34,346 nt of DNA, from the IMG/VR virus record IMGVR_UViG_3300006735_000105, positions 1-34,346 of that record; one strand, given 5' to 3'. The stretch comes from a virus. Position 1 is the stretch's first letter; each line of letters opens with the position of its first letter. Both the position numbers and the translations under genes were made by a program. A model generated the notes under the pieces. It did not search any database. It saw nothing but the letters and a program-made list of their open reading frames with translations, and had not been told where the DNA came from. Below are positions 6,001-33,645 of the stretch, one piece after another.

Positions 6001-7437
6001 ATTGAAAATAGAGAGACTGGCGAAAGAAGGCAAGGTTTCTATGGTAGCAATATTGATCAGGAACGGGCAATAAATGAAATTATTGAGAACAGGATTGGTC
6101 CTAGGCGAGAGAATGAAAGTCGTACAGATTTTCAAGAGAGAAAATTAAGAGCTATAGATGAATTGATAGCTTCAGAATCTGGTGGTGGATCTGAGACCGA
6201 AATGTTAGGGGATGGTCCTTCTACGACTTACTTTGATTCTTATATGGACTTTACTGACGAAGAGAACGAACTTTTCCGAAATAGGATTGAGCCATTCAGA
6301 GAAGGCGAGTCAAGAGCAGGTGGTTCTACTAATTCCTATACGCCTTCTATGGAAGGTGCTGCATATCGTCTTAGAAATGCGATTGAAGGTCAAGTGCGTT
6401 TCCGTGAAGGTAGATTTAGTAGAAATGTGGAGAGAGGCGCACCTAGGGGTAGAACTAGAGATGATCTAAGCGCTCCAAGACGTCGTGCTAGCTTTGTTAC
6501 GGATTCGCTTGGAGGTAGAGATGCCGATGGTTCTAGGCTTTCACAAACAAGAGCGTTTGAGAGAATGTCTATTCCTGAAAGACAAAGAGAAGCGAGAAGA
6601 CGTGGAGCATCAAGAGATATTATAGATAGGATTGGCAGGAATGAGGTAGGTCAAAGAAGACTAGCTGAGCGTGAAGGTAGAATGACACGCCGTGACGAAG
6701 ACCCTGATTTGAATGCAGAGTATGACATTCCAGCACAAATTCGTGACCCTGAAACAGGAAAACTTATCCGAAATCCAGAGTTTAGCGAGCTAACTAGGGA
6801 CAAGATAAATAGAAGAAGACGAAGAGCTGAAACACGTCAAGCAGAGCGTGAACGCCGTGCTGATAGAAGACGAAGAAGAGATGCAGCGGATGCAAGAGAA
6901 ACACAGGAAACACGTGACCAAAGAGCTGAAAGATTCAATGAGTCAATGGATGAAAGTGACCGAAGACAAGCTGAACAAAGACGAAGAGAATCCTTAGGTT
7001 TAGAAGGACAAGCGTTGCAAGAAGAAAGAGTTGAAAACGAGCAACGTGATCTTGAAAAGTTAAATGAGATTAGGGAAGAAGCTGAGCTTAGAGATAGGTC
7101 AAGAGAGGGCCGTGCTTCACGAAGAGAACGCATTTCTGATGAGATGTTTGAAAGAGTAGATCCTTTTGATGACTACGAAAGATATGAAGACTATTTGAAC
7201 GAAATGTATGCAAGGCACAGCGAAGGTCAGTCTTTTGAGCGCATAGCTGAAGCTGCTAAAACAACCCCAGCAGAAATAGAGTCTGATATTAAGTGGGATA
7301 TTTTTGGATTATACTCTGACCTTTACAAGAGCGAGCATGGCATAAGACCTACGTGGTTAAAGTGGCAGGAAATGAGTATAGAAGATTTAGAAAATCTTTT
7401 AGACACTGAGTATCCTTCTGTGCCGATGGGCGCATAA
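1..7437 (+). CDS. Giant modular low-complexity phage protein with REGRAS linkers (5' end outside window)
   Basis: The reading frame is open from base 1, so the ATG at 28 is probably internal; 2478 codons lie in the window before the TAA. The protein is extremely rich in Arg, Asp and Glu, with long predicted-disordered or helical stretches, two proline-rich segments (runs of five to six Pro around 4240-4260 and 4508-4570) and Arg-rich coiled-coil-like stretches near 6790-7130. The hexapeptide REGRAS or a close variant recurs about 14 times. A module beginning GSDPxxW and ending near RRGI occurs twice (709-1098 and 2563-3003). I recognise no catalytic motif in the visible part. Its position ahead of the head genes suggests a head-associated or internal virion protein, possibly fused upstream to a portal or protease region that I cannot see. 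Function unknown; the coding call is certain. Confidence 0.9.
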   Translation, partial: EDEENAIADMIEQQVNALIEDRVFDREGRAALRDLDLAADSPERFFRDGEYRPSDAEFDSRSQRQRIRNNMEFVENAMRELENVQESGSFGEDTDPDIAQWLNSTFELFDNDGSLRPDADRIIQEGLEKLEEANNGLEQEYLDSGGRRVVRAPQSAIDRINALEGREGRAAILPPDYPYSLMMMDLQDNLFALQNGPAYIRNRAKEAVARLKNMNRDRRDRRSIGREGRASSLPEIGSDPDLWSRHIDEHGFDFDQISLQDRSDSEVQQLLADIEIFQDLDVNFDLDGSEIDGPIGNTRRGAYGNILPSRTGDDHPLKFTYDQLLDDINGGDYLDQNEESRFYFAGIPVDDWRADLEAEVARRGIGREGREGRASLYNENVFAEDEEFSKQTNLDKIYDEAFQALDEGNDFEPQALEPEDFEFYRNNQDRLSEDIDDLVRLLRGEYPLGDSEYATNQGYNDEPWGAGDRAYGYDDSSIGTLAPESSFSYDLMDLIRIQAMVDRDKGRDRDAGLGQRRPGDAGFLDPNDDRFVDPNRPRLPGEDGFVDSERRAGRASQSLDDILQRTRRDEEREAARRGNEEFFRLLDTALNEKLRRRRMQDGDREGRASIEMPTRESVEAALTTEEKELLESTGPGSARNFLNRITNDGAWGDRAYSLIGPDFENSEYLKNYLEERKAFLTESNGARVGGLERAEAIISQERAQAKAMWEIGRARDAAKQTRNHRAKFDRTDSALMRDVLNVTGVGKQAQDIMGQASAASGPPDRTDEMIANLARNVRRRDLRSFGSPRESFLGSRKDIDELIDRLESKKGGLSDDDKSKVDQAIGLLAAVRDSNSGMWRRSPEGNTRFGQVYAGSDPSVWKRLVAANDGLFNEDGGLDFSKMSDRDLEQILIDAGALEDVDWVWPMALADHRQYVGGSREDWLGERSPRSQGLFGARVDAGRDQWYMDTVAGDEGGLSEFAKLYENNVEMYSRFDIDGFDPPSYDSWVDEIDKELRRRGILQPDESWNDIASGRDFWGNDNDGSSLFKPGSGLTTAEYEEMKFMQGTRKAREGRASLPGDAARDYNVTVDGRERSAVELAREGDVLDNDYEAITSMLDREGEGKLMPQRDLDRLSQSRFDALADELERRDISVNRETRRVGEHSGNQDRAIDALQEVFGDVDEERLDFSNVLENEAEVQIKPMQDLNSAFEGSLMDLDDWIDKNPNASLQEAADYFRSRLGNNFNDYAGGRGLTPSQVRENNDARDDLINRFLDDYGFDNNFADFYRRITMPEKGQSIDDDSFDSLLGEDDERNLLQTFAQEMGDFQRELTDFHAGEISAIENRYDSIISGDIAKERLNEAVDRVRTGRMSREGRMTRRDVDALNIDGPPSRRNPLDGPLTGEVDPPFDTRRALEMRERRERGELSRFVDIPTPPPPPRGRDGRYINMMDPDDREMNMALSEVQAPRNTLRERLTSRLPNSQRRARSREAARRRREEETLTRMGLVEPERRSRYTGLEDNEPTPPPPPAPLVDNDPTPPPPPVDDYIEGRDRRLASYETNAQKRNQRLFEMGLNMEDDNEVVKSVDSARRRRTFSEVFTESSRLKKDRVKKRDWLDDTEWYSDEGPLLPDPVTFSSWVEEENVRDAKEGTITTLQHIGLQGSRDYRAGDEKTPLIDPSFKSKVKRDFDMGSYPDERTLERMSDSEVENYLVTLEWTLSQMEQDDLRKLPITPFSDNPITRSKLAQAVEDTRGYMRNRIQGQTDRYGFNPRFRRERRQSGKEPYQEFFGSMMANVWENDRRIRGGGRKERDARDLTSRERAEGWNMPASMGGEPNRESPEYRSRADRNVPGEGATSARGGRGFAPVRRQPEREGRASRMREGRAAVPSDDLVRRAERRERPLDRNYSFVGNPEYRQREITELEEVLAGRKRLEDLDDRYKRGFKNYVSNFQDDREADMAEEARYDREDFDYEAFRDSDVVPVQGLLERYLDDLYEDMQSEISSMRRSRNQRGINERTPVTIENRETGERRQGFYGSNIDQERAINEIIENRIGPRRENESRTDFQERKLRAIDELIASESGGGSETEMLGDGPSTTYFDSYMDFTDEENELFRNRIEPFREGESRAGGSTNSYTPSMEGAAYRLRNAIEGQVRFREGRFSRNVERGAPRGRTRDDLSAPRRRASFVTDSLGGRDADGSRLSQTRAFERMSIPERQREARRRGASRDIIDRIGRNEVGQRRLAEREGRMTRRDEDPDLNAEYDIPAQIRDPETGKLIRNPEFSELTRDKINRRRRRAETRQAERERRADRRRRRDAADARETQETRDQRAERFNESMDESDRRQAEQRRRESLGLEGQALQEERVENEQRDLEKLNEIREEAELRDRSREGRASRRERISDEMFERVDPFDDYERYEDYLNEMYARHSEGQSFERIAEAAKTTPAEIESDIKWDIFGLYSDLYKSEHGIRPTWLKWQEMSIEDLENLLDTEYPSVPMGA
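709..1098 (+). repeat. Module copy 1 (GSDPxxW...RRGI) in the first giant protein
   Basis: This segment of about 130 residues begins GSDPDLWSRH, continues through an acidic helix containing SDSEVQQLL, and ends DLEAEVARRGI directly before a double REGRAS. It matches the segment at 2563-3003 in its opening GSDPxxWxR, the SDxxxxQxL helix and the closing ExxRRGI. Intervening parts have diverged and differ in length. Function unknown. Confidence 0.6.
2563..3003 (+). repeat. Module copy 2 (GSDPxxW...RRGI) in the first giant protein
   Basis: The segment begins GSDPSVWKRL, contains MSDRDLEQIL and closes with DKELRRRGI, mirroring copy 1 at 709-1098. It is longer by about 17 residues. A REGRAS motif follows at 3154. 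Confidence 0.6.
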
Positions 7438-18357: not shown

Positions 18358-21300
18358 ATGGTTAGTGTACGTTGGGGCGGGGTCAGAACAGACCCATACA
18401 ATCCCAATCCTAAGGATGCCGATTTAGATGGCATTGTTCAGGAGGGGACTTTTTTTGAACGCCCTGTAGGAACAAGATTTATAAACGCAATTGGTAGAGA
18501 GTTGCTTTCTGGAACTCCAGGTAGAAATCTGGGTGATATAGAAGGCATGGTTCTCGTTGATGAGAACAATAGGAGTGTTGCATATAATCCTACGTGGCGA
18601 TCTATGCGACTTACGATTGCTCAACGTCAACGTTCAATAGGTCAAATGAATGAGCCTGTTGGTAACATGGGAACTCTTAGTGCGCCTTCTATGGTCAGAC
18701 CAGTTGAGGAACCGCCTGTTGAAACGCCTTCTGCTTTGAGGCCTTTGAATCCTTGGAACATAATAGAAGGTGGCGATAGGATTGACAGTCCAAGATATGG
18801 TGAGGATACTAGACAGCGTGTTTATGGCAGGCTGCAAACTTCTGATGTTGACTTAGAGATTGTTGATAATCCTGATAATGGAAAGTTTCAGATAGTTGGT
18901 TCTTATAGAGATCCTGATGGAGACCCTGAATATTTTTATGATGAATATGAGTTTGATAGCATAGAAGATGCTCAAGAGTGGGGTTTGACATTAAGCGCCA
19001 TTTTGAATAATGACGATGATGATGCAGATGACATAAGAGACGCAGTTGACGAACTCTTGTCGTCTAATATCAAAGATCCCACGGTTGAAGATGTTCCCAG
19101 AAATCCTAGTAGTTTATCCAATGAAGATCTTGATAACACTATTGAAAGGTTGGATGAATTAGTATCTCAGACTAATGATTATACTGCAAGAATGGACTTA
19201 TTAGATAGGCTAGATTTGCACTTGGATGAACGTGAGAAACGTTATAAACGTGTTCGTGAGGGCAGGGCTTCTCGTGATACTACGGATAGAAGCGTAATAG
19301 ATATAACTCCAGAGAGTATACGTGAAGATGTTGGTGCTCATGATTGGAAGCAAACTAGAACAGATAGAGATTCAAAAAAGTCTGAGCTGGTTGAGGAAGT
19401 CGTTGAAAGGTTTTGGGGTGATGAAGAAAGCGATCCTTGGGATCTTACTGCTGCACTTGAAGACTTTTATAGAGAGAGTTTAGATGGGGCTAGTGAGGAA
19501 GAAATACAACAAGCGATAGATTTTTCTAAGGGAAAGATAGCAAGTGGTGAGATTGAGCCTAGTGAAATATTTAGCACTTTGTTAACTGAAGAGCAAAGAG
19601 AAGAACATATAAGGGATGCTTTTCTTATCGGTAAGCGTATTGACTTGGGAGAAAAAGTTGCTTCTGATGGTAAAAGCTATAGGATCGTTGCCACTCCTGA
19701 ACTTGAACCCCAGAGAATAGATGAAGATTTTGTTCAGGTTTCTGGAAGATTCAACTATGAGGTGTATGATGAAAAAGGTAATTTAGTTGGACAGTACACT
19801 CCTCCTGTTTTTGGTACACACACAGATTCTGGATTCCATAGAGAGATTGACCTAAGTCCTGTCGTGGATGATGATGGTGTTGCTAGGCCAAGCATTTTCA
19901 ATGTAGAGTTAGGCGCTAGCTCAACAATCAATTTTACTAATTCTGATGGTGAGTCTGTAAGCATTAACACTAAAGGCATGGGTTTAGCTGACATTTTTAA
20001 CGCTAACGCCTTTATGTTTATGGAAGCTATGGGAGTTAGAAGAGCTAAAACTACTGCTTCTTCTGATGGTGTTGTCGTATGGCCTCGTAAAGGTTATGTT
20101 GCGCAGGAAGACTCAGAGCAAGTTTTTGAAACCTTGGAGAGAATGACCGATCTTTTAAACGCTTATGATGAGTTTAAAGCTGGTATTGTTGGCGGTAATT
20201 TTAATAGTAGTTTTAGAATTATGGCTGCTGCGATTGTTGGAGATGATGAGCGTGCTGAAAGACTTAGGGGCATGCTTAAAGATTTTAATATTGAAAAGGT
20301 AAAAACGTATAAAGTTGGCGAGTTTGATAATATAATTGATTGGGACAGGTATAACGAAGACAATGGTGTTTCTTTTGCGGATGTGCCACAGTTGGGCGAT
20401 TTTATTCTGGCGCTTGAGAATCCTGATGGTTCAAGAAACTCTTTAATGTATGCGGCAGTCCACGATAGTTTGGTTAATTACAAAAAGGGCAAGTATGATG
20501 ATGTTATCCAAGATGCTATAGATGGTATTGAGGATGAAGGTTTGCGTACTTCTGTAGAAAATGTTTTGGATGGTGCTACTGTAAATGATTTAGTTAATTT
20601 TGGAACTCTGTTTTATGACGGTGTTATGGATTTAACTCCGTTTAAGGCTAAGAGGCCTAGTGATAGAGAGGGCCGTGCTTCTATAGCTGGCTTTGATGAA
20701 AATGATACTACTTTGAGAGGTATTGTTCAAACTGCTCAACGCTTAGGTAAATTAGTTGATTTGTCTAAATTTAGAGAAAAATTTGGTGAAAGAAGACGTA
20801 AAAAGGCTGGGAAAGGTCAGAGCCTTGGCTCTAGAGTTAAAGTTATTCCTGAAGGCTTTTCTGAGGAAGAACAGAGTGGCATTGCTGAGGCTTTTGATAC
20901 TTTAGATTCTGTGTTGGAGCTCCCTGAAAGTATGCGAGATATTGAGATACAGGTCGTTGGTCGTGGCTCTGCGATAGAAAGAGACATTCTTTTGACTTTG
21001 CCAATATATGATTCTAATTTAAATCAATACACTCGTGAAGAAAAAATGAGATTACCTGATGAAGAGTTAGCTGCTGGCTTTGATAGGTATGTATTTGAAT
21101 TTGCAGGGGCGAACGCCATGTTCATTCCCCCATATAACGAAGGCGAAAAAGGCATACTTGTTATGAGACCCATGTCTATGAGGGGCGGCTCTGCTCAAGA
21201 ACAATTTATTGAAAGCTATGTTGGTGATGTAGTTCTTCCAGATGGAAGATCTACATCTGGATTATACATTGGTGACATTTTACATGAAATGGTTCACGCT

Positions 21301-24300
21301 ATTGATGGTAGCGACAAAGACATTAAAGATATTGATGGGAGGCGTGATTACGGTGAGACTACTGTTATGGCCTTGGCAGAAACATTACTTTCCATGGAAA
21401 ATTTACCTCCTAAACTTAAAGAAGAACTTACAACCAACCCATCGGACTTAGCTTACAAAATTAGCACTAATCCTGGTGCCGTAGTGGACATAGCAAGGCT
21501 TTATCTTCCTGCTGAAGAGTTTAAAAAAATACAAGCTAGAGATAACCGCCTAAGGCAATGGGAAAGACGAGCAGGGCGAGAGCTTCCAGCAAGTGCAGGT
21601 GATCCATCACTATACCTTTCAGCAATTTTCAAAAAGAGACTTAATGATCAAAACGTTTCTTTAGATCCTAAGACTAGAGCTTTCATGGAGTTTTACACTA
21701 GGGCTAGCGAAACAGGTTCTTTCAAAGATTTAGTAGCTTTAGCAAATCCTTTTGATAAAGAAGGGAACTTAACAAACGGTCAAGCTGGTTACCTTGCTAG
21801 CCCACACGAAATACTTGCTAGAGGAGGCGCCCAGTACATTGCCCTAAAAGCTTTAGAAAAAACTGGTGTTGATCCCAGAAACTACGAATCATTTGAAAGA
21901 GACCTTAAACAGTTATACTCATTAGCTGCTAAAATGAAAGCAGGAAACCTAAGTCCTGAAGAAAGAGCTGTTTACGATAGATTAGTTCAGAAAGTACAGC
22001 AAGACTGGAATGATGCCTTTGACGAGCTAGACGACACCCAAATGAACTCACTAACCACGTATCTTTCGCTTTCTGCCAAAAAAGATCAATTCTCAATGTT
22101 AGAGATGAGAGACTTAACGCCGTTCCTTGACGAACTCATGTTAAATGTTGGTGCGCTACCTGAGGAAGATGACTTGCCAAGCCGTGACGTTACTCCAAGT
22201 GCTCCGCCTACTAGACCGCCAGAAGCGCCTCCAAGCGGAAGCATACCATTAAGACCATCTTTCCCTTCTCTTACTTATAGTGAAGACGACTACCGAAAAA
22301 TGCCTATTGATGAGTTAATGAAATACACTACATCAACTAGTGCAGTTCCTTTAGGACCTAACCGTTTTGATGAGAATGCTCTTTCTGTTTTAGAAGAAAG
22401 AGTTAAAGAACTTAGTGATGAGGAAATAAGAAGAATGTATCGTCCTCAAGATGGTAGAATTATTGGCGTATACAATGTTGGGCAAGACGTTATTAATGCT
22501 GAATTTTCTAAGAGGGGTCTGCTTAGGTTATCTGCTGAAGAGCAAAGAGAAGTCCTTATGGAAAACTTGTCTAAAAGACAGGGAGGTAGACCAGGTAGGG
22601 CGAGCAAAGAGTATCAAGAGTCTTTATTAGATATGGAACAGGGATGGTTAGCTACTGGAGATGATTTGGTCTCTGAAAGACTTAAAGAAGCTGGAAGGTT
22701 GCTTGATTCTGGAGAAATTTCAGATGAGGAGTTTTACGAGATATCCCAAGAGTTAAACGAAGAAGCTTTAGATGCTAGACTTTCTGATTTTGGTGATGTT
22801 TACGGAGATGGTGCTGCTAGTTTGATAAAAGATTGGGTACGTGACTCTTATTCAACTGGATTTGGAGGAGGGGAAGAAGATGATACAATGGCAGTGCGTG
22901 ATTTACAAGCTGCTATAAATGATTTCCCTGAGAAAGATCTTTTATGGCGTGGCATTGTTTTAGATCCTGAGACTAGAGAGCGAATGTTAGAGTCTAAAAA
23001 AATTAGGATGCCTATAGGAGCAACTGCTGACAATGATAGAACCCCACTTGAATATGGTGGCACTGGTGAGAATGGTGTTCTTTTGAGGATTGAAGGGGCT
23101 AATGCTTTACCGATTAACAAATTTTCTCCTATAGGCTCTGATGACGAGTGGCTTGTTACTGGAGATTTTGAAATTGTTTCTGAGGGTAAACATACTGTAA
23201 CAGGAGGCCAATTCCCTGAAGAGGTTAACATGTGGGTTGTCAGACCAATCAGAGACGGTGACTCAAGAATTGGTAGGGCTTCAGCTCGCTTGGAAGGTGG
23301 GCCTCCTCCTGCTGCTGACGAACCAGCCATTGTGCCTCCTCCGCAACGGCTACCTTTTGATGCAAGCCTAAACAGACGAGCTCTTGAAATAGATATGACT
23401 CTAACTCCAGAGTTACGAGAGCAGTGGGATGCTGAAAGGCAACGCCTCATTGATTTAGATATAGATCCTGAAATGCGTGAACGGCGTATGGATCAATTGT
23501 TTGAAGAACTGGTAAGAGACAACCCAGATCTTGTGAGAACACCTCCGCCTGGGGCTAGACCTTTAGGTGGCGACCCTGATCCGTTGGAAGGAACGTTTGC
23601 GTATAATGAACGTTTGGGCTTACCACCTCCTAATGTTAGAGAGGGCCGTGCTTCTAGATGGGATATGTTTGAGGGCGGTAGTAGAGTGGAAGATCCTGTG
23701 TACTCTACTGACGATAATCAAAAAGTATTTGGTAAGTTGCAAACTGAAGTTGTTGATTTGGAAATTTTAAACAATCCTGATGGTGAAGGGTTTGTTGTTG
23801 CTGGTCAGTATTTGGATTTTGATGATGAAGCAAATGATTTAGACTTTAGTGGCTTTTATGAGTTTGATTCAATTGAAGCTGCTGAAGATTGGGCGAATGG
23901 CCTTGAGGCGGTTCTTCAAGAATCTATTGATGGCTATGATGATTTTGAAGATTATGAAGATAGGTTAGATAGGGTTTTAGGTAATGAAATATATACGGGT
24001 GCTGGTACTTTTTCTGAGAGAGTCAGAGAAGGTAGGGCGTCAACGCCTACTCCTGAAAGAGCTAGAGAAGGTAGGGCATCAAAACCAGAAACAGGCAGTC
24101 AGGCATTAGCAAAAGTTTTTGCTGATCGTTGGAGAAAGATTGCCGAACAGAGAGGCATGGTTAGCGAAAAATCTAGTGAAAAATTAAAAACTATGCTTCC
24201 TGAAAGCAATGAGGGAACCGCTAAATTTATTGAGATTGAACACGAGCAAAATCCTGTTTTTAGTAAAGCAATGAAAAACACTTTAGATACCATGTTTCTT

Positions 24301-25701
24301 AAAATGTTGTTAAACCCTCAGTATGCAAAAATTACTGATGATTCTAAACGGGAAAAGTATATTGATGAAAATTATAGTGTTGTGTCATATAATCACGATC
24401 TTCAAGAGCTTAGAGGAAAGCTTAAAGAAGGTGGATCTTTAGAAACAAATTTTGTATCAAACCTTAATGAAGATCAGAAAAAACTTTTAAGAAAGTTGAC
24501 AAGTAGTAGAATGGCCGGAAGACCTGATGCCGACCCTGAAGCTTTAACTGATGAAGAAGCTAAAGTTTTTTATGCGGGTATGGCTCAAGATGCGTGGGCG
24601 GGAACGTCTCAACAATTTGATTTACAACTTGCTGCCGCTCTTGAATCAGGAATGTCTGATGAGGATATTATTCAATCTGTTTTCTGGCAAGATTTTAGTA
24701 AAGCTGAAGTGTACGTAGCAACAGGCGACGGTAAAAATCCAGATGCACAAACAAATCTTTCAAATAAAGAAATAGGTCAACTTGTTTTAGATGCTGTAAG
24801 ATCAGATAAAATGGTTGTAGTTCAGGGCGAAGAGGAAGGTAAGATTAAATCCGTAGTCATTGATCCTAATTCTATACCAAAGGCAGGATCAGCCCTATTA
24901 CCACAAATTTCTTTTTATGATGAAAACGATAAGTTACTTATAGATACTCAACTTTTTGGTCAAGGAGTAAACACTTTTACGTTTGATAAAGACACTCTTG
25001 CCATTCATCAAGGTTTTTTGAAAGCCAGAAGAGAACAAACTATAAAAAATCTTAAAGAGGCTGGAATTACTCATGTGACTTTATACAGGGGAATGGGCGA
25101 CTCTGCAGGCGTGTTTGAAGACGGATACGACAAGGGAGAGCTTGCTCCGTTGTCTTCTTGGAGTTATCGTTTAGGAACAGCGACTCAGTTTTCTAGTGGA
25201 GAACCAAATAAAACTGCCGTTATTTTAGAAGCAGCAATTCCGATTGAAGCTATAGCTGGTACATCATTTGATGGTTTTGGTTGCTGGACAGAAGAAGAAG
25301 TTATTGTTGCTGCTGGTAAGCTTGATCCTGAACTGGTAGGAATTAAGAGTTTTAGTTTGACTGCAGAAGGAGCTTGGAAGGATGGTGATGATATTGATTT
25401 ACGTGGTCAAAATCACTCTAAGAATCTTGCTCTTGTTGAAATTGTAGGAAGGTTATTTAGAGAAGCCGTGTCTGATCCAGACTATCTTAGTTCTGAATAT
25501 GAAATAACACAATTGGCTAATAGTGTTGCGGCGAAATATGGTTTACAAGGTGATGCAAATGAAATTTTAAGATATTCACCTGAACTTAGAGAAAAAGTAA
25601 GGAAAATATTATCTAATATTAGCGAAGGGTTTGTTGAAGATAGTCTTGATATAGCAGGGCTACAAACCTCACCTCAAGGTTTTGATACATCAGAAAGTTG
25701 A
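18358..25701 (+). CDS. Giant polyvalent protein: GNAT-like, HExxH zincin and two ADP-ribosyltransferase domains joined by REGRAS motifs
   Basis: 2447 residues. Visible parts: residues 1-45 with NPKDADLDGIVQEGT, a DxDxDG calcium-loop-like motif; a domain at 133-220 that recurs at 1768-1862; a GNAT-like stretch at about 450-585 (GMG at 540-542, WPRKGY at 575-580); a zincin at about 825-1165 with HEMVH at 976-980 and a likely third ligand Glu1151 in SPHEILAR (Glu1008 is the alternative); a Pro-rich linker near 1280-1305; a first ART-like domain at about 1440-1620 (Arg1531 in LWRG, Glu1597 in DDEW); and a C-terminal ART at about 2235-2340 (Arg2244, Ser2267-x-Ser2269, Glu2312-x-Glu2314). REGRAS-type motifs stand at 300, 770, 1411, 1637, 1761, 1890 and 1903. 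'Polyvalent proteins' of phages carry such mixed effectors, probably delivered with DNA and acting on host targets. The gene lies among neck and tail genes, consistent with a virion component. Targets are unknown. Confidence 0.9.
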   Translation: MVSVRWGGVRTDPYNPNPKDADLDGIVQEGTFFERPVGTRFINAIGRELLSGTPGRNLGDIEGMVLVDENNRSVAYNPTWRSMRLTIAQRQRSIGQMNEPVGNMGTLSAPSMVRPVEEPPVETPSALRPLNPWNIIEGGDRIDSPRYGEDTRQRVYGRLQTSDVDLEIVDNPDNGKFQIVGSYRDPDGDPEYFYDEYEFDSIEDAQEWGLTLSAILNNDDDDADDIRDAVDELLSSNIKDPTVEDVPRNPSSLSNEDLDNTIERLDELVSQTNDYTARMDLLDRLDLHLDEREKRYKRVREGRASRDTTDRSVIDITPESIREDVGAHDWKQTRTDRDSKKSELVEEVVERFWGDEESDPWDLTAALEDFYRESLDGASEEEIQQAIDFSKGKIASGEIEPSEIFSTLLTEEQREEHIRDAFLIGKRIDLGEKVASDGKSYRIVATPELEPQRIDEDFVQVSGRFNYEVYDEKGNLVGQYTPPVFGTHTDSGFHREIDLSPVVDDDGVARPSIFNVELGASSTINFTNSDGESVSINTKGMGLADIFNANAFMFMEAMGVRRAKTTASSDGVVVWPRKGYVAQEDSEQVFETLERMTDLLNAYDEFKAGIVGGNFNSSFRIMAAAIVGDDERAERLRGMLKDFNIEKVKTYKVGEFDNIIDWDRYNEDNGVSFADVPQLGDFILALENPDGSRNSLMYAAVHDSLVNYKKGKYDDVIQDAIDGIEDEGLRTSVENVLDGATVNDLVNFGTLFYDGVMDLTPFKAKRPSDREGRASIAGFDENDTTLRGIVQTAQRLGKLVDLSKFREKFGERRRKKAGKGQSLGSRVKVIPEGFSEEEQSGIAEAFDTLDSVLELPESMRDIEIQVVGRGSAIERDILLTLPIYDSNLNQYTREEKMRLPDEELAAGFDRYVFEFAGANAMFIPPYNEGEKGILVMRPMSMRGGSAQEQFIESYVGDVVLPDGRSTSGLYIGDILHEMVHAIDGSDKDIKDIDGRRDYGETTVMALAETLLSMENLPPKLKEELTTNPSDLAYKISTNPGAVVDIARLYLPAEEFKKIQARDNRLRQWERRAGRELPASAGDPSLYLSAIFKKRLNDQNVSLDPKTRAFMEFYTRASETGSFKDLVALANPFDKEGNLTNGQAGYLASPHEILARGGAQYIALKALEKTGVDPRNYESFERDLKQLYSLAAKMKAGNLSPEERAVYDRLVQKVQQDWNDAFDELDDTQMNSLTTYLSLSAKKDQFSMLEMRDLTPFLDELMLNVGALPEEDDLPSRDVTPSAPPTRPPEAPPSGSIPLRPSFPSLTYSEDDYRKMPIDELMKYTTSTSAVPLGPNRFDENALSVLEERVKELSDEEIRRMYRPQDGRIIGVYNVGQDVINAEFSKRGLLRLSAEEQREVLMENLSKRQGGRPGRASKEYQESLLDMEQGWLATGDDLVSERLKEAGRLLDSGEISDEEFYEISQELNEEALDARLSDFGDVYGDGAASLIKDWVRDSYSTGFGGGEEDDTMAVRDLQAAINDFPEKDLLWRGIVLDPETRERMLESKKIRMPIGATADNDRTPLEYGGTGENGVLLRIEGANALPINKFSPIGSDDEWLVTGDFEIVSEGKHTVTGGQFPEEVNMWVVRPIRDGDSRIGRASARLEGGPPPAADEPAIVPPPQRLPFDASLNRRALEIDMTLTPELREQWDAERQRLIDLDIDPEMRERRMDQLFEELVRDNPDLVRTPPPGARPLGGDPDPLEGTFAYNERLGLPPPNVREGRASRWDMFEGGSRVEDPVYSTDDNQKVFGKLQTEVVDLEILNNPDGEGFVVAGQYLDFDDEANDLDFSGFYEFDSIEAAEDWANGLEAVLQESIDGYDDFEDYEDRLDRVLGNEIYTGAGTFSERVREGRASTPTPERAREGRASKPETGSQALAKVFADRWRKIAEQRGMVSEKSSEKLKTMLPESNEGTAKFIEIEHEQNPVFSKAMKNTLDTMFLKMLLNPQYAKITDDSKREKYIDENYSVVSYNHDLQELRGKLKEGGSLETNFVSNLNEDQKKLLRKLTSSRMAGRPDADPEALTDEEAKVFYAGMAQDAWAGTSQQFDLQLAAALESGMSDEDIIQSVFWQDFSKAEVYVATGDGKNPDAQTNLSNKEIGQLVLDAVRSDKMVVVQGEEEGKIKSVVIDPNSIPKAGSALLPQISFYDENDKLLIDTQLFGQGVNTFTFDKDTLAIHQGFLKARREQTIKNLKEAGITHVTLYRGMGDSAGVFEDGYDKGELAPLSSWSYRLGTATQFSSGEPNKTAVILEAAIPIEAIAGTSFDGFGCWTEEEVIVAAGKLDPELVGIKSFSLTAEGAWKDGDDIDLRGQNHSKNLALVEIVGRLFREAVSDPDYLSSEYEITQLANSVAAKYGLQGDANEILRYSPELREKVRKILSNISEGFVEDSLDIAGLQTSPQGFDTSES
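18754..19017 (+). repeat. Duplicated domain, copy A, in the second giant protein
   Basis: Residues about 133-220 begin WNIIEGGDRI and include VYGRLQTSDVDLEI, then NPDNGKF and YEFDSIEDAQEW. They match copy B at 23659-23940 along the whole length. Function unknown; the predicted strand-rich core with a closing helix suggests a small globular domain. Confidence 0.85.
19255..24081 (+). repeat. Dispersed REGRAS peptide motifs in the second giant gene
   Basis: Copies start at 19255, 20665, 22588 (RPGRAS), 23266 (RIGRAS), 23638, 24025 and 24064. They separate copy A, the GNAT-like region, the zincin, the first ART, a Pro-rich linker, copy B and the C-terminal ART block. Codons differ among copies (for example gagggccgtgcttct against gaaggtagggcatca). 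Confidence 0.9.
23659..23940 (+). repeat. Duplicated domain, copy B, in the second giant protein
   Basis: Residues about 1768-1862 begin WDMFEGGSRV directly after a REGRAS and include VFGKLQTEVVDLEI, then NPDGEGF and YEFDSIEAAEDW, paralleling copy A. It is bounded by REGRAS motifs on both sides. Confidence 0.85.
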
Positions 25702-26591: not shown

Positions 26592-28106
26592 ATGCCGGGA
26601 ATTAATGTCACCACTGCGGTGCGCACAGGGCCTGTGGGCATTGGAGATATTATAGCAGGGCAATGGTTTGCTGTTGGTGAGACAGAACGTGGAGACCTAG
26701 CTGCCCCTACTCTGTGTCGGAGCTTTAGTGATTATGTAAAATTTTATGGAGATTACCAAGCTGGTAATCTTTATCAGTATGTTAAGACATATTTTGATGA
26801 GGGCGGTACACGTTGCTATGTTCAGCGTGTTCTTGGTGCATCTAGCGCCACTGCTACAAAAACTCTTGATGACGCTTCAGGTAATGACACAATCACATTC
26901 ACTGCTAAGAATGCAGGACAATGGGGCAACAAACTTGCTGTTCAAGTTATTGCCGCTGACGTAGCTGGATTTAGAGTAAAAATTTATTTAAATGATGTTG
27001 AAATATACCTGACCCGTGACCTTGTTGATGTCACGGATGCTATAAATGTTATAAACTCAGCACCTGCTGTTTCACACTTAATCGTTGCGTCTGATGACAC
27101 AACTTCAGCTGCAAACCCTGCTGTGGTTTCTAAAACTGCTTTAGCGGCTGGTGCAAATGGAACTAACCCAGCAACTGATGCTGAAGCTGTTACTGCTTTA
27201 GGTTTGCTTGCAGGACAGTACAAATCAGGAGCGATTTCGCTACCTGGCCGAACTGGAACAACAGTTTGGGACGGCTTGGTTGCTCACGCTCAAGCGTATA
27301 GCAGAATTGCTATATGTGCTTTCGGTACTTCAACTACTGCAGCTCAAGCTAAAACTGCAGCTTCTGCGTATTACTCAAATGCTGGCGCAAGCTATATGGG
27401 ATTCTATTTCCCACATGTTAAAGTTCCAGCACCTTCAAGTTCTGAATTAGCTTCATTAAATGAAGCTGGTTCTGCTGTAGAGCCAACCCCACAAGCTTCA
27501 ACAGTCACTGTTGACCCATCAGCTTATGTTGCTGCGGCAAGAACTCGTGCTATTGAAGCTGCTGGCGGCCCATGGCGTGCAGGCGCTGGCGCAATTTCTT
27601 CAGCAACGACCATCACTGATATGGCTACAGCTGTTACACCTGCTGATGGCGATCTGCTTGATGAAGCAAGAATTAATGCGCTAAGGAAAATAGGAAACCA
27701 GATTAGAGTTTACGGTGCACGTTCAGCTTCTAATGATGAAGCTAACTGGCGATTCATAACTCTACGAGATAGTGTCAATTACATTGTTTACGGTTGTGAA
27801 GACCGCATGGAACAATTTGTGTTTAACACAATTGATGGACGTGGAAACCTATTTGGAAGAATTCGTGCATCTTTGAAAGCTTTTCTAGACCCCATGCGAA
27901 TCGCAGGTGGTCTTTATGAAGCATATGATGACGACGGTAATCTTATTGATCCTGGCTACTCTGTAGTTGTCAATTCTACAAATAATCCAAACAGTCAGCT
28001 AGCTACTGGACTTGTAAAAGCTTCGGTTGGTGTGCGTGTTTCTGGAGTTGCAGACTTGATTGAGGTTGAGGTTACAAAGAGTAACTTAACAGCACCCATC
28101 TTATAA
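26592..28106 (+). CDS. Tail sheath protein
   Basis: The 504-residue protein has GGAGG 6 nt before the ATG. The N-terminus (MPGINVTTAVRTGPVG), the region FSDYVKFYGDYQAGNLYQYVKTYFDEGG, and the C-terminal domain with NWRFITLRDSVNYI, then FGRIRASLKAFLD and VVNSTNNPNSQLATG are standard for contractile tail sheaths. The middle domain is Ala/Thr-rich and variable, as usual. The subunit forms the outer contractile tube that drives the inner tube through the cell envelope. The tube gene follows 16 nt downstream. Confidence 0.95.
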   Translation: MPGINVTTAVRTGPVGIGDIIAGQWFAVGETERGDLAAPTLCRSFSDYVKFYGDYQAGNLYQYVKTYFDEGGTRCYVQRVLGASSATATKTLDDASGNDTITFTAKNAGQWGNKLAVQVIAADVAGFRVKIYLNDVEIYLTRDLVDVTDAINVINSAPAVSHLIVASDDTTSAANPAVVSKTALAAGANGTNPATDAEAVTALGLLAGQYKSGAISLPGRTGTTVWDGLVAHAQAYSRIAICAFGTSTTAAQAKTAASAYYSNAGASYMGFYFPHVKVPAPSSSELASLNEAGSAVEPTPQASTVTVDPSAYVAAARTRAIEAAGGPWRAGAGAISSATTITDMATAVTPADGDLLDEARINALRKIGNQIRVYGARSASNDEANWRFITLRDSVNYIVYGCEDRMEQFVFNTIDGRGNLFGRIRASLKAFLDPMRIAGGLYEAYDDDGNLIDPGYSVVVNSTNNPNSQLATGLVKASVGVRVSGVADLIEVEVTKSNLTAPIL

Positions 28107-28122
28107 TTAGGAGAAACATAAA

Positions 28123-28611
28123 ATGAAAACTACCCAAAGACAAATTGTGGCAGCAATTGAGCCATCAGATCTTCCTGGAGCTGGTGCTGGGCATGTTCAG
28201 GGCCCACCAGTGGAGACGTCTTCTTCCACAAACTATTTTGCTACTGTTAGTGGTGGGGAAATAAGCGCTGCTGTAGAAAAAATTTATGACGGCAATAACG
28301 CTTTTCCTGATGTTCTATGCGCCCCTTCAGAAATTGGTGATATAACTGTAAGTAAGTTTTTTGATGAGCAACACGACACGAGTTTTCTATCTAAACTACG
28401 TCAACTCGTAGGTCGTGTATATTACGACGTGACCATATTTACACTAGATTGTGATCTAATGGTTTCTGGTTCAGAGCGTGTTTACCCACGCTGCTTGCTT
28501 GTCGGACTTTCAGATATTGACGGTGACGCATCTTCTGGTGCTCCATCGTCCTTCTCACTTACATTTGCGGTATCGCATATAACACCAACTGAAGGCACCG
28601 TAGTAGCTTAA
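28123..28611 (+). CDS. Tail tube protein
   Basis: This 162-residue protein lies immediately after the sheath, which is the usual place for the tube in myoviruses. It is strand-rich and has the size expected for gp19-like tube subunits that stack as hexamers inside the sheath. The segment ITVSKFFDEQHDTSFLSKLR, followed by alternating hydrophobic strands and VSHITPTEG at the end, fits that fold. The ribosome site is GGAGAAAC. The call rests mainly on order, length and predicted fold. Confidence 0.85.
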   Translation: MKTTQRQIVAAIEPSDLPGAGAGHVQGPPVETSSSTNYFATVSGGEISAAVEKIYDGNNAFPDVLCAPSEIGDITVSKFFDEQHDTSFLSKLRQLVGRVYYDVTIFTLDCDLMVSGSERVYPRCLLVGLSDIDGDASSGAPSSFSLTFAVSHITPTEGTVVA

Positions 28612-28629: not shown

Positions 28630-29370
28630 ATGGCAATACCAACCACAAGTAAAAATGTTCGTCTTGACGAACTTCATCCACGATTCAAAGATAGATTAGA
28701 AGCCTTTTTCAATGATCCCGAGATCAAGGGTAAGGTATCCGTTGTTTCTGGTGTTCGCACATATTGGCAGCAAAAGTACCTGTATGACGGGTACATCAAG
28801 AAGAAATCTGGTTTCAATCTGGCCGCAAATCCAGATAGGAAAAAAGCTAACGGTTTCCAAGGTAGCTATCACATGGCTCAACCGTCATTCGGTTCTTACG
28901 GTTATGCAGTTGATTTTCGCATAATTAAGTGGGGCGGCGGCATGAGTACAGATAAAGTTAATGCTGTAGCTAAAAAATATGGTATTCAAAAAACAGTACC
29001 TTCGGAATGGTGGCATCACCAGCCTGGTTATGTTTCTGGCGGAAAGTTTGTTTGGTTTGATGCTCCTGCACTATCTGGAGAAAAGAAAATCACTAAAGCT
29101 GTTGCTGAGCCTGAGAGTGCTGTATCCAAGTACATCAAAGACTGTTCTAAAGTCGTACTTCGTAAAGGCGCTAAAGGTAAAGTTGTAGAATTGTTACAAA
29201 AATTATTAGTTGCTCAAGGATACAAGCTTACATGGCACAAGACTCGTTCAGGTATTGATGGAGATTTCGGTAGAATGACTGACCGAGCTGTTAAACGATT
29301 CCAAAAAGATGAAGGTCTTGTAGCTGATGGTATCGTTGGTAAGAACACTTGGGCCGCTTTAACAGACTAA
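28630..29370 (+). CDS. Endolysin: M15 (VanY-type) peptidase with C-terminal peptidoglycan-binding domain
   Basis: 246 residues, with AAAGGAAG before the ATG. Residues about 10-140 form an M15-family zinc peptidase: SGVRTYWQQKYLY, His81 in GSYHM, Asp95 in YAVDFR, and Glu126-Trp-Trp-His129. These match the His/Asp/His zinc ligands and catalytic Glu of D-Ala-D-Ala or L-Ala-D-Glu endopeptidases. The region between His81 and Asp95 is longer than in the typical SxHxxGxAxD motif. Residues about 170-246 are a peptidoglycan-binding type 1 domain (RKGAKGKVVELLQKLL, then GIDGDFGRMTDRAVKRFQ). No signal peptide is seen. Its position between tube and chaperone could mean lysis or a virion-associated role. 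Confidence 0.92.
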   Translation: MAIPTTSKNVRLDELHPRFKDRLEAFFNDPEIKGKVSVVSGVRTYWQQKYLYDGYIKKKSGFNLAANPDRKKANGFQGSYHMAQPSFGSYGYAVDFRIIKWGGGMSTDKVNAVAKKYGIQKTVPSEWWHHQPGYVSGGKFVWFDAPALSGEKKITKAVAEPESAVSKYIKDCSKVVLRKGAKGKVVELLQKLLVAQGYKLTWHKTRSGIDGDFGRMTDRAVKRFQKDEGLVADGIVGKNTWAALTD

Positions 29371-29419: not shown

Positions 29420-29947
29420 ATGGATACACGAACTAATTCAAACGACGAAGTCATTAACGTAGCTGCTGCTACTGCAGCTGGTGAAGAAAAGAAAGCTGGT
29501 CAAAAGCTTACTATTCTTGAACAGTTAAAAGAAGAAATCTCAAAAGAGGTTACAAGACCTGATATTGAGATGGAAGTACCAGAGCGTAGAGGCGTTACTG
29601 TTCGTTTTTCACCAAATATAACTAATGAGCAACTTAAAGCTTGGCGTAGAAACTCTACTAATAAGAAAACTGATGAGCTTGATTCAATTAAGTTTTCTTG
29701 TTATGTTGTGGGTAATACTGTTGTCGGAATCTATTTCAATGATGAATTGGTTGAAGATTCAAAAGGCAACGCTATAAACTTTGCTGCCCCAGAGATGTTG
29801 GAGATGACAAACACAACTCGCCCACTTCCTGACGCTATCCGTGCTTTTTATGCGACTGATCCTCACTTAGAGTCTGTAGCTATCAAGATTCTTGATTATG
29901 CCGGATATGGTGATGAGGTTGATGCTGAAGACCCTACCAAGGGCTAA
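29420..29947 (+). CDS. Tail assembly chaperone, short form
   Basis: The 175-residue protein has an acidic, Ala-rich N-terminus and a compact core (PERRGVTVRFSPNITNEQLK, then DELDSIKFSCYVVGN), ending DAEDPTKG. Its place directly before the tape measure, and the downstream frame that can only be entered by frameshifting, mark it as the G-type chaperone that coats the tape measure during tail assembly. Expression appears leaderless. Confidence 0.8.
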   Translation: MDTRTNSNDEVINVAAATAAGEEKKAGQKLTILEQLKEEISKEVTRPDIEMEVPERRGVTVRFSPNITNEQLKAWRRNSTNKKTDELDSIKFSCYVVGNTVVGIYFNDELVEDSKGNAINFAAPEMLEMTNTTRPLPDAIRAFYATDPHLESVAIKILDYAGYGDEVDAEDPTKG

Positions 29948-30138
29948 CTGAGCACTTATCTCACGATCATAGGATAAGGTCAGCAGCCCGACTTGCAGAA
30001 GCTTTCCATACAGACCCAATAGATATATTGAATTCTGACTTTGACGAATGGTTGATTCGTGTTGCCTGCGCTCAGGCCTTGTCACGTGACCATGAGGAGT
30101 TGGAGCGAAAAAGAAAAGCCCAGAGGGGTGGATATTAA
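29941..30138 (+). CDS. Tail assembly chaperone extension reached by -1 frameshift (G-T form)
   Basis: A -1 frame opens just before the chaperone stop and continues for about 65 codons (LTEHLSHDHRIRSAARLAEA, then FHTDPIDILNSDFDEW and RVACAQALSRDHEELERKRK). This is the usual T-domain type: helical, with a Lys/Arg-rich tail. The -1 frame is closed by TGA codons upstream of about 29926, and the extension lacks a start codon with a ribosome site. The shift therefore has to occur in GAA GAC CCT ACC AAG GGC TAA. The likeliest slip is GGC to GGG with the stop in the A site. No canonical XXXYYYZ heptamer is present. The long form would run 29420-30138. Confidence 0.75.
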   Translation, partial: GLTEHLSHDHRIRSAARLAEAFHTDPIDILNSDFDEWLIRVACAQALSRDHEELERKRKAQRGGY

Positions 30139-30210: not shown

Positions 30211-33200
30211 ATGGCTGATGTCCAAAGTACCGTAGTAATAAAGGTAAAGATTGACACTGATCAGCTTGATGCCGAACTTGCTGGGATGAGTAAAAAGTTT
30301 GATAGATTCGGTGACCGTGATAATAAGATAGCTGGTGGTGCCCGCTCTTTAGATAACAAGTTGAAGCGTGTTAGCCGTTCTATGGGTGGTGTATCTAGAG
30401 GTCTTAAGCAAATGACGGCTGGTTTTGGTAAGCTTGTCCTTATGATGGGTAAGATTAACTTTCTTGCCATGGCTGCTGAGCTTGGTGTGTTTACTGCTGG
30501 TCTTTTGGCTATTAAGTTAGCTTTGATAACTGGGCGAGCGGCGGTGAGTCTGTACAACATTGCGCTGAAAGGTTTGTCGGTTGCGGCGGCCTCTGTTGCT
30601 ACTGGTTTGTCGGTTGCTGCTGCCGCTATGCGTGAGTTCCAAGAAGCACAGATGGTTCCATTTTTAGGTGGAGGATTTACTGGCGGAATGAAGGCTAGAA
30701 GAATTAGCCGTGGTATGGGTGCTAGGAATATGGGCTTGCTTGGTGGGCAGGGCGCTATGCAGGTAGCTTCTGCTCAGGCTAGAGGAGGCTTTTCGGGTCA
30801 GAACAGTGCTTCTTTAGTAGCTGCTTTGATAAATGCTGCTGGTGGTGCAGATCCTGCGGCGATTAGTTCTGTTCTTAAGAATACTACTGTTGCGGGTGCT
30901 GTTGGCGCTGCTCAAAATTTGGCTGGTATTAGAAAAGGCGCACTTGACGGCATTAGTTCGTTTGGTGGCTTAGGGGCTGCTCTTACTGGCGGTGGCGCAC
31001 TTAAACAAGGTTTCGGTGGAACTGGCGAGACTTTGGCTAACACGTTTTTGGGAACTGTAAAAACTGGTTTTGCTGACATGAAAGGACTTTTTGCTGATAT
31101 TGGTATGCCAATGCTTGAGCCAATGAGACAAGCATTTTTACAAATTTCTAACAGTTTGCGTGAAAACTTCTTAGCTTTACAGCAGATCGTTCAACGATTC
31201 GGTGCGGATTCAATGGCTCCCACGATGGTTACAATTTTTGATAGAATCATGCGCTTTATAACTGAGAACGTTATAGATCATTTAGGGAAGATTAAGGAGA
31301 TGGGCGATAACTTTGTTGGCTTCTTTAAGGCTATGGCTAATTTCTTTAGGGGTATGGGTAGTTTCCTTGGCCAGTTTGAGCCTGCTGCTAATGTGATTAT
31401 TGACATGTTTAAAGCTGGTTCTAAGGCTAATACGTCTAGCCTGTTTAAAGATTTTAGTGATCTTGTTGTTAAACACAGAGAAGGCTTGATGGCGTTTGGT
31501 ACAGCTGTAGGTAATTTGTTTGGCGGAATTTTTGATATGTTCTCTGGCGGTAATCGTGGCTTCTTTGAAGACGGTTTACCTATGCTGGTTGATACTATGA
31601 ATGCTTTGACAGAAAAGCTGTTTCCTGCTTTTCAGAATTTGTGGGAAAAGATAGGTCCGACTTTTGATTTGCTTCCGGCTGTTATAGCTGGTTTGGCTAC
31701 TGCGATTAATGCTTTGGCGCCTTTTATTGGCATGTTTGCTAGAGCGATTAATGCTTTGATGGGTGCGATGCCTACTTTAGTTGGTTTGATAGCTTTATCA
31801 ACTATGGGCCCTGGTGCGAATATGATGGGTGGCGCTGCTAAAATGCTGGGTATTAACAAGGCATCAGTAAAAGGAGTCATGAGTGCTTTAGGGTCAAAGA
31901 AGATTTTTGCAGCTAAAGGGGCTCCGGTAGCAATCGGTAGAGGTATTGGTATTGGTGGCAACTTTGCAACGGGAGCTTCTATGCCAGTAGCTTTAGGTAC
32001 GTATGGTCAACTTGCGACTGGTTTGGGTGGCTTGGCTGCGATGGGTGGCGGTGCTTACATGGCAGCCACAGGCGGCGTGGAGGCATTCAAAACTGGTAGA
32101 TTTACTGGTAAAATGGCTATGGGTGCTGGTTTGGGTCTGGCGGGTGCTAGCATGGCAGGGTTGGCTGTAACTGGTCCTGTTGGAGCTGCAATTATAGCGA
32201 CTGCTCTTTTAACGGAAGGTTTATTGGCTTACTTCGGTAATAAAAAGTTTAAAAAAGATTCTAAAAACGCTATGAAAGAAGCACTTGAAGAAGGGCGTAA
32301 AAGTAGAGCAGCTAAAATAGCGACAGGAGAATTTGGTCAAGAAGATTTTGATGCTTTGACTAAAGAGAAACAACTTCTAGAAAGAGCTATGGACGCCGCT
32401 GTAAATGATAAGGGCGAGTTCAAAATGGAGGGGGATACTAGAGAGTTTAAAGAGTATTTGCGCTTCAAAGATATAGACCCGAACGATATTCACAGGGACG
32501 CAGCTTTTGAGGAAGCTGTAGGTTCAAATGAGTTGACTAGGTTGATAGCTGAAATTGGCGCTGCTGAAAGAAGGCGTGCTAATAACTTAGCGTCTGTTAC
32601 TAGTCAAACTAACGCTTCTTTAGAAAAGCTTGGTGCATCTTTGCGATTGACAAGTGAAGATGTTGAAAGACTTGCTCAGGACCTTTATGGTATTGACTTG
32701 CACAAAGGTGTGAGTCCTTTGGCTGGAATGATGATAGCTGCTTCGCAAACTATATTTAGCAGAAACAGGGGATTCGCTCCTGACTTCTCTACGTCTAAGA
32801 TGGGTATTAATGAAAGCATGGTTTCTGCTGATAAGGCTTTACTTGCTTTGAGAGATGACTTTAACGTAGATAATCTTACTGCGTTTTCTACGGCTTTCTC
32901 ATCTTATGAAGTTTCTAGAGGTATGAGCTCAGATATTGCTGGCTTGTCGTCTATAATGGAAATAGAGCAGCAGGCAGAAAGAGGCGTCTTTGGAACTAAT
33001 AAGGCTGCTGCTTTGGAAGCTGCTGGAGTGGCTAAGGCACAAATATTTGCTGAAATGGGCTCTTCATATAATATACCTTCAACTAAGTTGCGGGAAATAT
33101 ATGAGTCTGGTGGTATGTCAGGCTTAGAGCAATTCCTTGGTGATCAGCAACTCATGCGTAGAGGTATTGCTGGTCTTAAAGGTGACATGTCCCATAAAGA

Positions 33201-33645
33201 TAGGCTTGATGTATTTTCTAGGATGGGTGTTGATCTTGAAAGTCAGGCTGGATTTAAGGATTCTATAGGTGGTGCAATAACTGCAGAGCAATATAATAAG
33301 CTGTTTGGTATAGGTCTTGGTGACGATGAGTTTGGTGGAGCAGGACAAGATTATTTTGACTCGCTTGATAAGGGCTTGGTATACGAGCAAGTTGCAGCTA
33401 AAGCTGCAGGTGGAGATAGTGCGGCTGAAGAGATCATGCGTGAGTCAATGAATAATTGGATGACTGATACTGGGGATTTAGATGCGAATAGAAATAGGTT
33501 GCTTGAAACGATTAACGATGCTGTGAATAAGCCTTTAATTTCAGTTAACGGAATGGAGACTGGTCAAGGTTCGTTTACTATTGAGATTGGTCCTAATACA
33601 GGGATAAATCCTGCTGGACCTCCTACAATTCCTGTGGACTTATAA
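30211..33645 (+). CDS. Tape measure protein
   Basis: 1144 residues with GGAG about 8 nt before the ATG; a possible -10 (TAGAAT, 30160-30165) lies upstream. The protein starts with a short coiled-coil-like region (IDTDQLDAELAGMSKKFDRF). Hydrophobic Ala/Gly-rich stretches follow near residues 75-140 (LVLMMGKINFLAMAAEL), 480-545 and 600-680, with hydrophilic helical segments between them. This pattern, its size and its position after the chaperone pair define tape measures, which fix tail length and are ejected ahead of the DNA. At about 0.15 nm per residue the tail would be near 170 nm (inference). Its stop overlaps the next ATG (TAATG). No lytic domain was recognised. Confidence 0.93.
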   Translation: MADVQSTVVIKVKIDTDQLDAELAGMSKKFDRFGDRDNKIAGGARSLDNKLKRVSRSMGGVSRGLKQMTAGFGKLVLMMGKINFLAMAAELGVFTAGLLAIKLALITGRAAVSLYNIALKGLSVAAASVATGLSVAAAAMREFQEAQMVPFLGGGFTGGMKARRISRGMGARNMGLLGGQGAMQVASAQARGGFSGQNSASLVAALINAAGGADPAAISSVLKNTTVAGAVGAAQNLAGIRKGALDGISSFGGLGAALTGGGALKQGFGGTGETLANTFLGTVKTGFADMKGLFADIGMPMLEPMRQAFLQISNSLRENFLALQQIVQRFGADSMAPTMVTIFDRIMRFITENVIDHLGKIKEMGDNFVGFFKAMANFFRGMGSFLGQFEPAANVIIDMFKAGSKANTSSLFKDFSDLVVKHREGLMAFGTAVGNLFGGIFDMFSGGNRGFFEDGLPMLVDTMNALTEKLFPAFQNLWEKIGPTFDLLPAVIAGLATAINALAPFIGMFARAINALMGAMPTLVGLIALSTMGPGANMMGGAAKMLGINKASVKGVMSALGSKKIFAAKGAPVAIGRGIGIGGNFATGASMPVALGTYGQLATGLGGLAAMGGGAYMAATGGVEAFKTGRFTGKMAMGAGLGLAGASMAGLAVTGPVGAAIIATALLTEGLLAYFGNKKFKKDSKNAMKEALEEGRKSRAAKIATGEFGQEDFDALTKEKQLLERAMDAAVNDKGEFKMEGDTREFKEYLRFKDIDPNDIHRDAAFEEAVGSNELTRLIAEIGAAERRRANNLASVTSQTNASLEKLGASLRLTSEDVERLAQDLYGIDLHKGVSPLAGMMIAASQTIFSRNRGFAPDFSTSKMGINESMVSADKALLALRDDFNVDNLTAFSTAFSSYEVSRGMSSDIAGLSSIMEIEQQAERGVFGTNKAAALEAAGVAKAQIFAEMGSSYNIPSTKLREIYESGGMSGLEQFLGDQQLMRRGIAGLKGDMSHKDRLDVFSRMGVDLESQAGFKDSIGGAITAEQYNKLFGIGLGDDEFGGAGQDYFDSLDKGLVYEQVAAKAAGGDSAAEEIMRESMNNWMTDTGDLDANRNRLLETINDAVNKPLISVNGMETGQGSFTIEIGPNTGINPAGPPTIPVDL

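Follow-up and report, generated by a model that had tools for sequence, protein, structure and literature searches.

A conserved C_CCU tetramer as the probable slip site of a -1 programmed frameshift in a phage tail assembly chaperone

The virus record IMGVR_UViG_3300006735_000105 (34,346 bases, analysed over its whole length and called the window here) raises the question of how translation passes from the gene for G, a predicted tail assembly chaperone (29420..29947, + strand, as are all features of the junction given below; zero-frame product of 175 amino acids (aa)), into a second frame, T, that overlaps its end. T lies in the -1 frame relative to G and is open from 29929 to a TAA at 30136-30138; a TGA at 29926-29928 closes it upstream, which leaves the last 16 nucleotides (nt) before the G stop as the only place of entry. 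An earlier note on this DNA had proposed a -1 programmed frameshift yielding a GT chaperone, with entry shortly before that stop and without a canonical slippery heptamer, and this part of the proposal is well supported by the frames, the selection on T and a junction conserved among relatives. The same note took AAG GGC TAA, with GGC TAA at 29942-29947, to be the available site, but the same overlap holds C_CCU at 29932-29935, and it is this tetramer that the relatives share.

The two products fit the roles expected of G and its extension. G falls in PHROG 5088, ‘tail assembly chaperone’ (E=5.7e-19), and its assignment draws in addition on gene order and on model similarity: the best predicted model (predicted local distance difference test (pLDDT) 79, the remaining four models reaching 49-53) resembles YqbN (3klu; Z 10.8, root-mean-square deviation 4.2 over 113 residues) and the HK97 tail assembly chaperone (2ob9; Z 6.6) in the VIA structural matches. 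A Foldseek search of the PDB with G returned nothing significant, the HK97 chaperone appearing at E 1.1, and no Pfam family exceeded the cut-off for G or for T. The T extension, read after the slip (29935..30138; 67 codons, stop 30136-30138), has no start codon of its own near the junction, the first ATG, GTG or TTG of its frame in the window lying 32 codons into the 68-codon extension. Within the window's clade its codon positions differ by 0.31/0.18/0.57, and nonsynonymous divergence (dN) is 0.15-0.35 against a synonymous divergence (dS) of 4.9 or saturated; to judge from these sequence comparisons, T is under purifying selection. Its predicted model is all-helical, with four helices (pLDDT 90), and Foldseek found no significant match to it in the PDB.

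To locate the slip site, relatives of G were gathered from IMG/VR, from GTDB contigs and from annotated Gordonia, Arthrobacter and Brevibacterium phages. One relative search supplied 80 of its 140 confirmed relatives, and 26 of the annotated phage records that matched (72 Arthrobacter, 14 Gordonia, 2 Brevibacterium) were used; the resulting 161 loci gave 87 distinct 180-nt junctions, 61 environmental and 26 from cultured phages. Dropped from the set were L078, whose contig ends before the junction, L155 and L156, which are IMG/VR copies of Abba and GMA6, and L159, which has an indel in G, AAC CCT and the T frame being present there nonetheless. As single-protein scan queries, the G proteins of Abba and GMA6 matched only those phages themselves. 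Two further G relatives, L157 and L158, lie on contigs binned in a Gammaproteobacteria metagenome-assembled genome (isolate SP183); these contigs are probably phage, and their host is uncertain.

With G identity down to ~25%, all 87 junctions carry an in-frame CCT preceded by C within the overlap that is open in the -1 frame, that is, a Z_ZZN motif both in frame and conserved; in the window it forms the end of the slip region GAC_CCU (29930..29935). The codon before CCU varies (GAC 66, AAC 20, AGC 1) and CCU is kept throughout, the heptamer letters ending at CCT being GGACCCT in 51 junctions, AAACCCT in 20, AGACCCT in 8 (the window among them), CGACCCT in 6, and TGACCCT and AAGCCCT in 1 each. 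Canonical heptamers occur in 27 of the 87 (A_AAC_CCU 20, C_CCU_UUR 7) and are missing from the other 60; in the window the site reads AGACCCU, and the overlap contains no X_XXY_YYZ, just as the earlier note had stated. C|CCT makes up 0.5% of codons in the background (309/62,235), and its chance of falling in the overlap is 0.02-0.09 for each of seven divergent representatives, values that multiply to ~1e-9 if independence is assumed. The slip-site proline is among the nine invariant columns of a 20-row G alignment whose surrounding tail is poorly alignable, and its codon is the sole CCT among the proline codons counted in ArV1 (1/21) and in Vibaki (1/11). In the Gordonia phage DalanDe, a TGA stands immediately before CCC in the -1 frame, so that an earlier shift is impossible there. 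The distance from CCU to the G stop is 1, 2, 3, 4 or 7 codons, from which we conclude that the signal does not include the stop.

The conserved site is followed at short range by a predicted structure. In the window a 5-nt spacer, ACCAA (29936..29940), separates CCU from a predicted stimulatory stem (29941..29989), proposed on the basis of folding energy and a position-specific signal, that pairs GGGCU (29941-29945) with AGCCC (29985-29989), then CUGA with UCAG and CUUAUC with GAUAAG; GGGC and the zero-frame stop TAA of G (29945..29947) are thus both part of it, GGGCU being its 5' arm. Folded from the base after CCU, the window RNA reaches -17.4 kcal/mol (z -3.48; 1 of 200 shuffles reached so low an energy), and over 80 nt the same fold is weaker (z -1.83). 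For 26 environmental representatives, picked by eye for diversity like the 16 cultured-phage ones used below, 50-nt folding windows gave a mean z of -2.54 at +5 and -2.08 at 0, compared with -0.80 at +10 and -0.73 to +0.28 at twelve further offsets. In 49 of the 61 environmental junctions, the first helix with 5 or more base pairs begins 5 or 6 nt past CCU, while at random positions the first helix starts 4-7 nt in for 20%; a stem at +5/6 is absent from L098, L118 and L119.

The letters of the stem vary between clades, and paired changes were counted in alignments that were picked after the folds had been seen (A4, 12 of the 20 AAACCCU junctions; A5 and A6, 21 and 7 junctions from the window's clade). 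Among the 12 chosen AAACCCU rows, 97% of cells are paired, four pairs are changed on both sides, and there are 13 two-sided changes, a score that 0 of 500 shuffles reach. For the GGGCUA arm, the partner in most relatives within the window's clade is a local ACUAGCCC arm (91.5% paired, weak covariation), whereas the window and a few others use a distal AGCAGCCC arm that lies within conserved SAAR codons (95.7% paired). The z-score of the window, the preferred helix position and the covariation in one clade together indicate a downstream structure at 5-6 nt. Among the cultured phages there is only a longer-range folding signal: 120-nt folding windows gave a mean z of -2.69 against ~-0.2 at two control offsets, and six Marthavirus-type sequences folded singly each have long stems starting 5-6 nt past CCU. 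The corresponding 120-nt contrast is weaker in the environmental group (-2.18 versus -0.77 and -1.80 at control offsets).

The frames, the conserved site, a stem signal tied to position and the selection on T, all of them properties read from the sequences, point to a -1 programmed frameshift that very probably joins chaperone G to the T extension through a stem-stimulated slip of tRNA-Pro from CCU to CCC. Several observations weigh against this explanation. The window's own distal stem shows no covariation, because its 3' arm falls in the conserved SAAR coding motif and close relatives use a different 3' partner; the support for the distal pairing therefore comes from energy and position. The 16 cultured-phage (Gordonia/Arthrobacter) representatives give no short-range stem signal, and the long outer stems seen in single-sequence folds are missing from the consensus fold of seven Marthavirus-type sequences. 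A Shine-Dalgarno-like upstream stimulator is not supported: its signal is above the gene average, but z is -0.55 after synonymous resampling, which controls for the encoded protein. Finally, tRNA-Asp would re-pair poorly on AGA in the window, and in E. coli such tetramers shifted in at most 5.6% of cases and needed a strong stimulator, according to the accessible part of the study concerned (PMC4066793).

What we infer from these features is that slippage takes place, how often it does so, which tRNA slips and that the stem acts as its stimulator. As the ribosome decodes GAC CCU, its mRNA entry channel would be obstructed by the stem 5 nt downstream. The tRNA-Pro would then re-pair one base back, from CCU to CCC, so that at the third position it pairs with C in place of U, and translation would resume at UAC (Tyr). 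The predicted fusion product is a 239-aa GT (...GDEVDAEDP-YQGLTEHLS...), with DEVDAEDPYQGLTEHLSHDHR as the junction peptide expected in the window from a C_CCU slip, and the majority of ribosomes, which would not slip, would terminate at the UAA at 29945 to give the 175-aa G. During the shift the Asp codon, or the Asn codon in the sister clade with the full heptamer A_AAC_CCU, would probably occupy the P site. Because tRNA-Asp would re-pair poorly on AGA, the site would act in effect as a Z_ZZN tetramer.

Which tRNAs move, and where, admits other answers. The earlier note had suggested a stop-assisted slip, in which tRNA-Gly slides from GGC to GGG with UAA standing in the A site, producing ...EDPTKGL..., a fusion likewise of 239 aa. 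GGGC is indeed well conserved in the window's clade, but G|GGN directly before the stop occurs in 30 of the 87 junctions, essentially that clade, and is missing from the other 57, which keep the same T frame; across the whole set the stop lies from 1 to 7 codons past CCU. Its place in the stem arm and the Gly-Leu of the T frame account for the conservation of GGGC, and were GGC in the P site, the stem would already have melted at its base. In the portion of the E. coli tetramer study available, G_GGC is not among the responsive motifs (PMC4066793), and we regard this mechanism as very improbable. A closer contender, to which we give somewhat less than even chances, is a tandem slip on a degenerate heptamer, in which the Asp-tRNA on GAC and the Pro-tRNA on CCU move together onto RGA_CCC, the site being a decayed form of A_AAC_CCU; it would refine the tRNA-Pro slip, not replace it. 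RAC precedes CCU in 86 of the 87 junctions, the sister clade has the complete heptamer, and the spacer of 5-6 nt favours CCU in the A site, as this model asks. Yet all four bases are found before GAC among relatives, and in Cantare the sequence AGC CCU UUA would fit CCU to the P site. We put forward more tentatively still that a slip of a single tRNA on C_CCU is ancient and drives frameshifting throughout a group of contractile-tail actinophages and of environmental viruses related to them. It is conceivable, at the same tentative level, that one peptidyl or A-site tRNA-Pro moves, usually after Asp or Asn; and perhaps the heptamers A_AAC_CCU and C_CCU_UUR form and decay around the invariant tetramer, with the stem re-formed using different partner arms, and a slow Asp-Pro bond might supply the pause required by so weak a motif.

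Two further routes into T dispense with backward slippage. T could be translated independently and remain unfused to G, whether through re-initiation or through a start codon of its own. The Arthrobacter phages Bolt007, Prairie and Bumble do have a T-frame ATG or TTG 9 codons upstream, with T annotated as a separate overlapping gene. However, a start-codon scan around the slip found no ATG, GTG or TTG from -10 to +12 codons in 73 of the 87 junctions, and in the window none appears before the one 32 codons in, on which grounds this route was rejected as very improbable. In three Arthrobacter phages (L162, L163, L165), such a T-frame ATG or TTG 9 codons upstream of the slip could yield an additional, separate T. 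A forward jump of two bases, or transcriptional slippage, would lead into the same frame, -1 and +2 being identical. Against these, the C before CCU is conserved though silent in the G frame, and it would be needed only for re-pairing one base back; moreover, the junction has no homopolymer longer than CCC or GGG. We consider such a jump or slippage highly unlikely. The -1 slip of tRNA-Pro on C_CCU remains our preferred explanation.

This explanation bears on how these genes are annotated. A joined tail chaperone gene is annotated in all six Gordonia records examined but in none of 19 Arthrobacter records and not in the one Brevibacterium record, although the CCCU junction and the T frame are present in all 20; the -1 joined tail chaperone thus appears to be missing from the annotation of these 20. 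In L024, L027, L028, L144-L154 and L160-L165, the T region is left without a gene or is annotated either as a short, truncated hypothetical protein or as a gene of its own that overlaps G. An in-frame CCCU a few codons before the G stop could serve annotators as a mark of chaperones missed by motif tools or by manual annotation. The account of PRFect gives eight backward motif names and mentions 103 SEA-PHAGES genomes in which no motif lies close to the shift as annotated (PMC10885494). Our literature search met no CCCU site named in tail chaperones, which is weak evidence of absence since most subscription papers lay outside its scope, and a search on the heptamer letters gave nothing relevant among the matches listed, besides one cardiovirus frameshift paper.

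The surrounding genes place the junction among tail genes. In order, the window encodes a tail sheath (26592-28106) and a tail tube (28123-28611), both assigned by PHROGs, an endolysin-like open reading frame (ORF; 28630-29370, PHROG 2649), G/T, and a long ORF of 1,144 aa (30211-33645) at the position of the tape measure. The last has no PHROG match, its identity as tape measure following from size and position. G/T accordingly lies between tail tube and tape measure, and the endolysin-like ORF intervenes between tail tube and chaperone. No phage-encoded tRNA was found in the window. Elsewhere, a REGR(A/M/F) peptide recurs 12 times in a giant ORF at 28-7437 (2469 aa), where there are DNA repeats too, and 5 times in another at 18358-25701 (2447 aa); the copies in both are mostly REGRAS or REGRAA, and the peptide is absent from six other ORFs checked. 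The peptide may be a linker or a protease site that recurs in structural polyproteins.

Tail chaperones made by frameshifting are a classical case. The G/GT frameshift of phage lambda and its relatives was reportedly described by Xu et al. in 2004 (cited in PMC4524720 and PMC5009743), and the window resembles it in pairing a short G with a longer GT that would arise by a -1 shift just before the G stop, in the location of the genes between tail tube and tape measure, and in the family and fold of G. What distinguishes the window from lambda is the core of its site, a C_CCU tetramer with a stem 5 nt downstream, and the new element here is this tetramer form of an otherwise known G/GT frameshift, together with a revised slip site. 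Closer still is Gordonia phage GMA6, which has homologous G and T and GAC CCT at the junction, and whose record is annotated ‘translated by conserved programmed translational frameshift’; a frameshifted tail chaperone is likewise mentioned in the available part of its description (PMC4524720). Unlike the window, GMA6 contains in GAC_CCU_UUG the canonical heptamer C_CCU_UUG, and it belongs to the cultured group that lacks the short-range stem signal.

The mechanism itself finds its nearest counterpart in E. coli, where Sharma et al. (2014) tested all 16 Z_ZZN tetramers with a pseudoknot (IS3) 5 nt downstream. In the accessible portion of that report, six tetramers, A_AA.G, U_UU.C, U_UU.U, C_CC.U, C_CC.C and A_AA.A, stood at least 4-fold above background, all needing the stimulator (PMC4066793). 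C_CCU therefore falls in the tested responsive class, which G_GGC does not, and the window matches that system in the tetramer, in the predicted stimulator and in the 5-nt spacer before the structure. The tetramers that the same partial text names for IS1 and IS3 are A_AA.G, U_UU.[U,C] and A_AA.A, out of five in all (PMC4066793); unlike these, the window's C_CCU would serve a phage tail gene, with an extended stem. The junctions compared here thus suggest a natural and deeply conserved use of a C-type tetramer that shifts in E. coli only with a strong stimulator, one that allows a direct test of how tetramer, heptamer context and stem are related.
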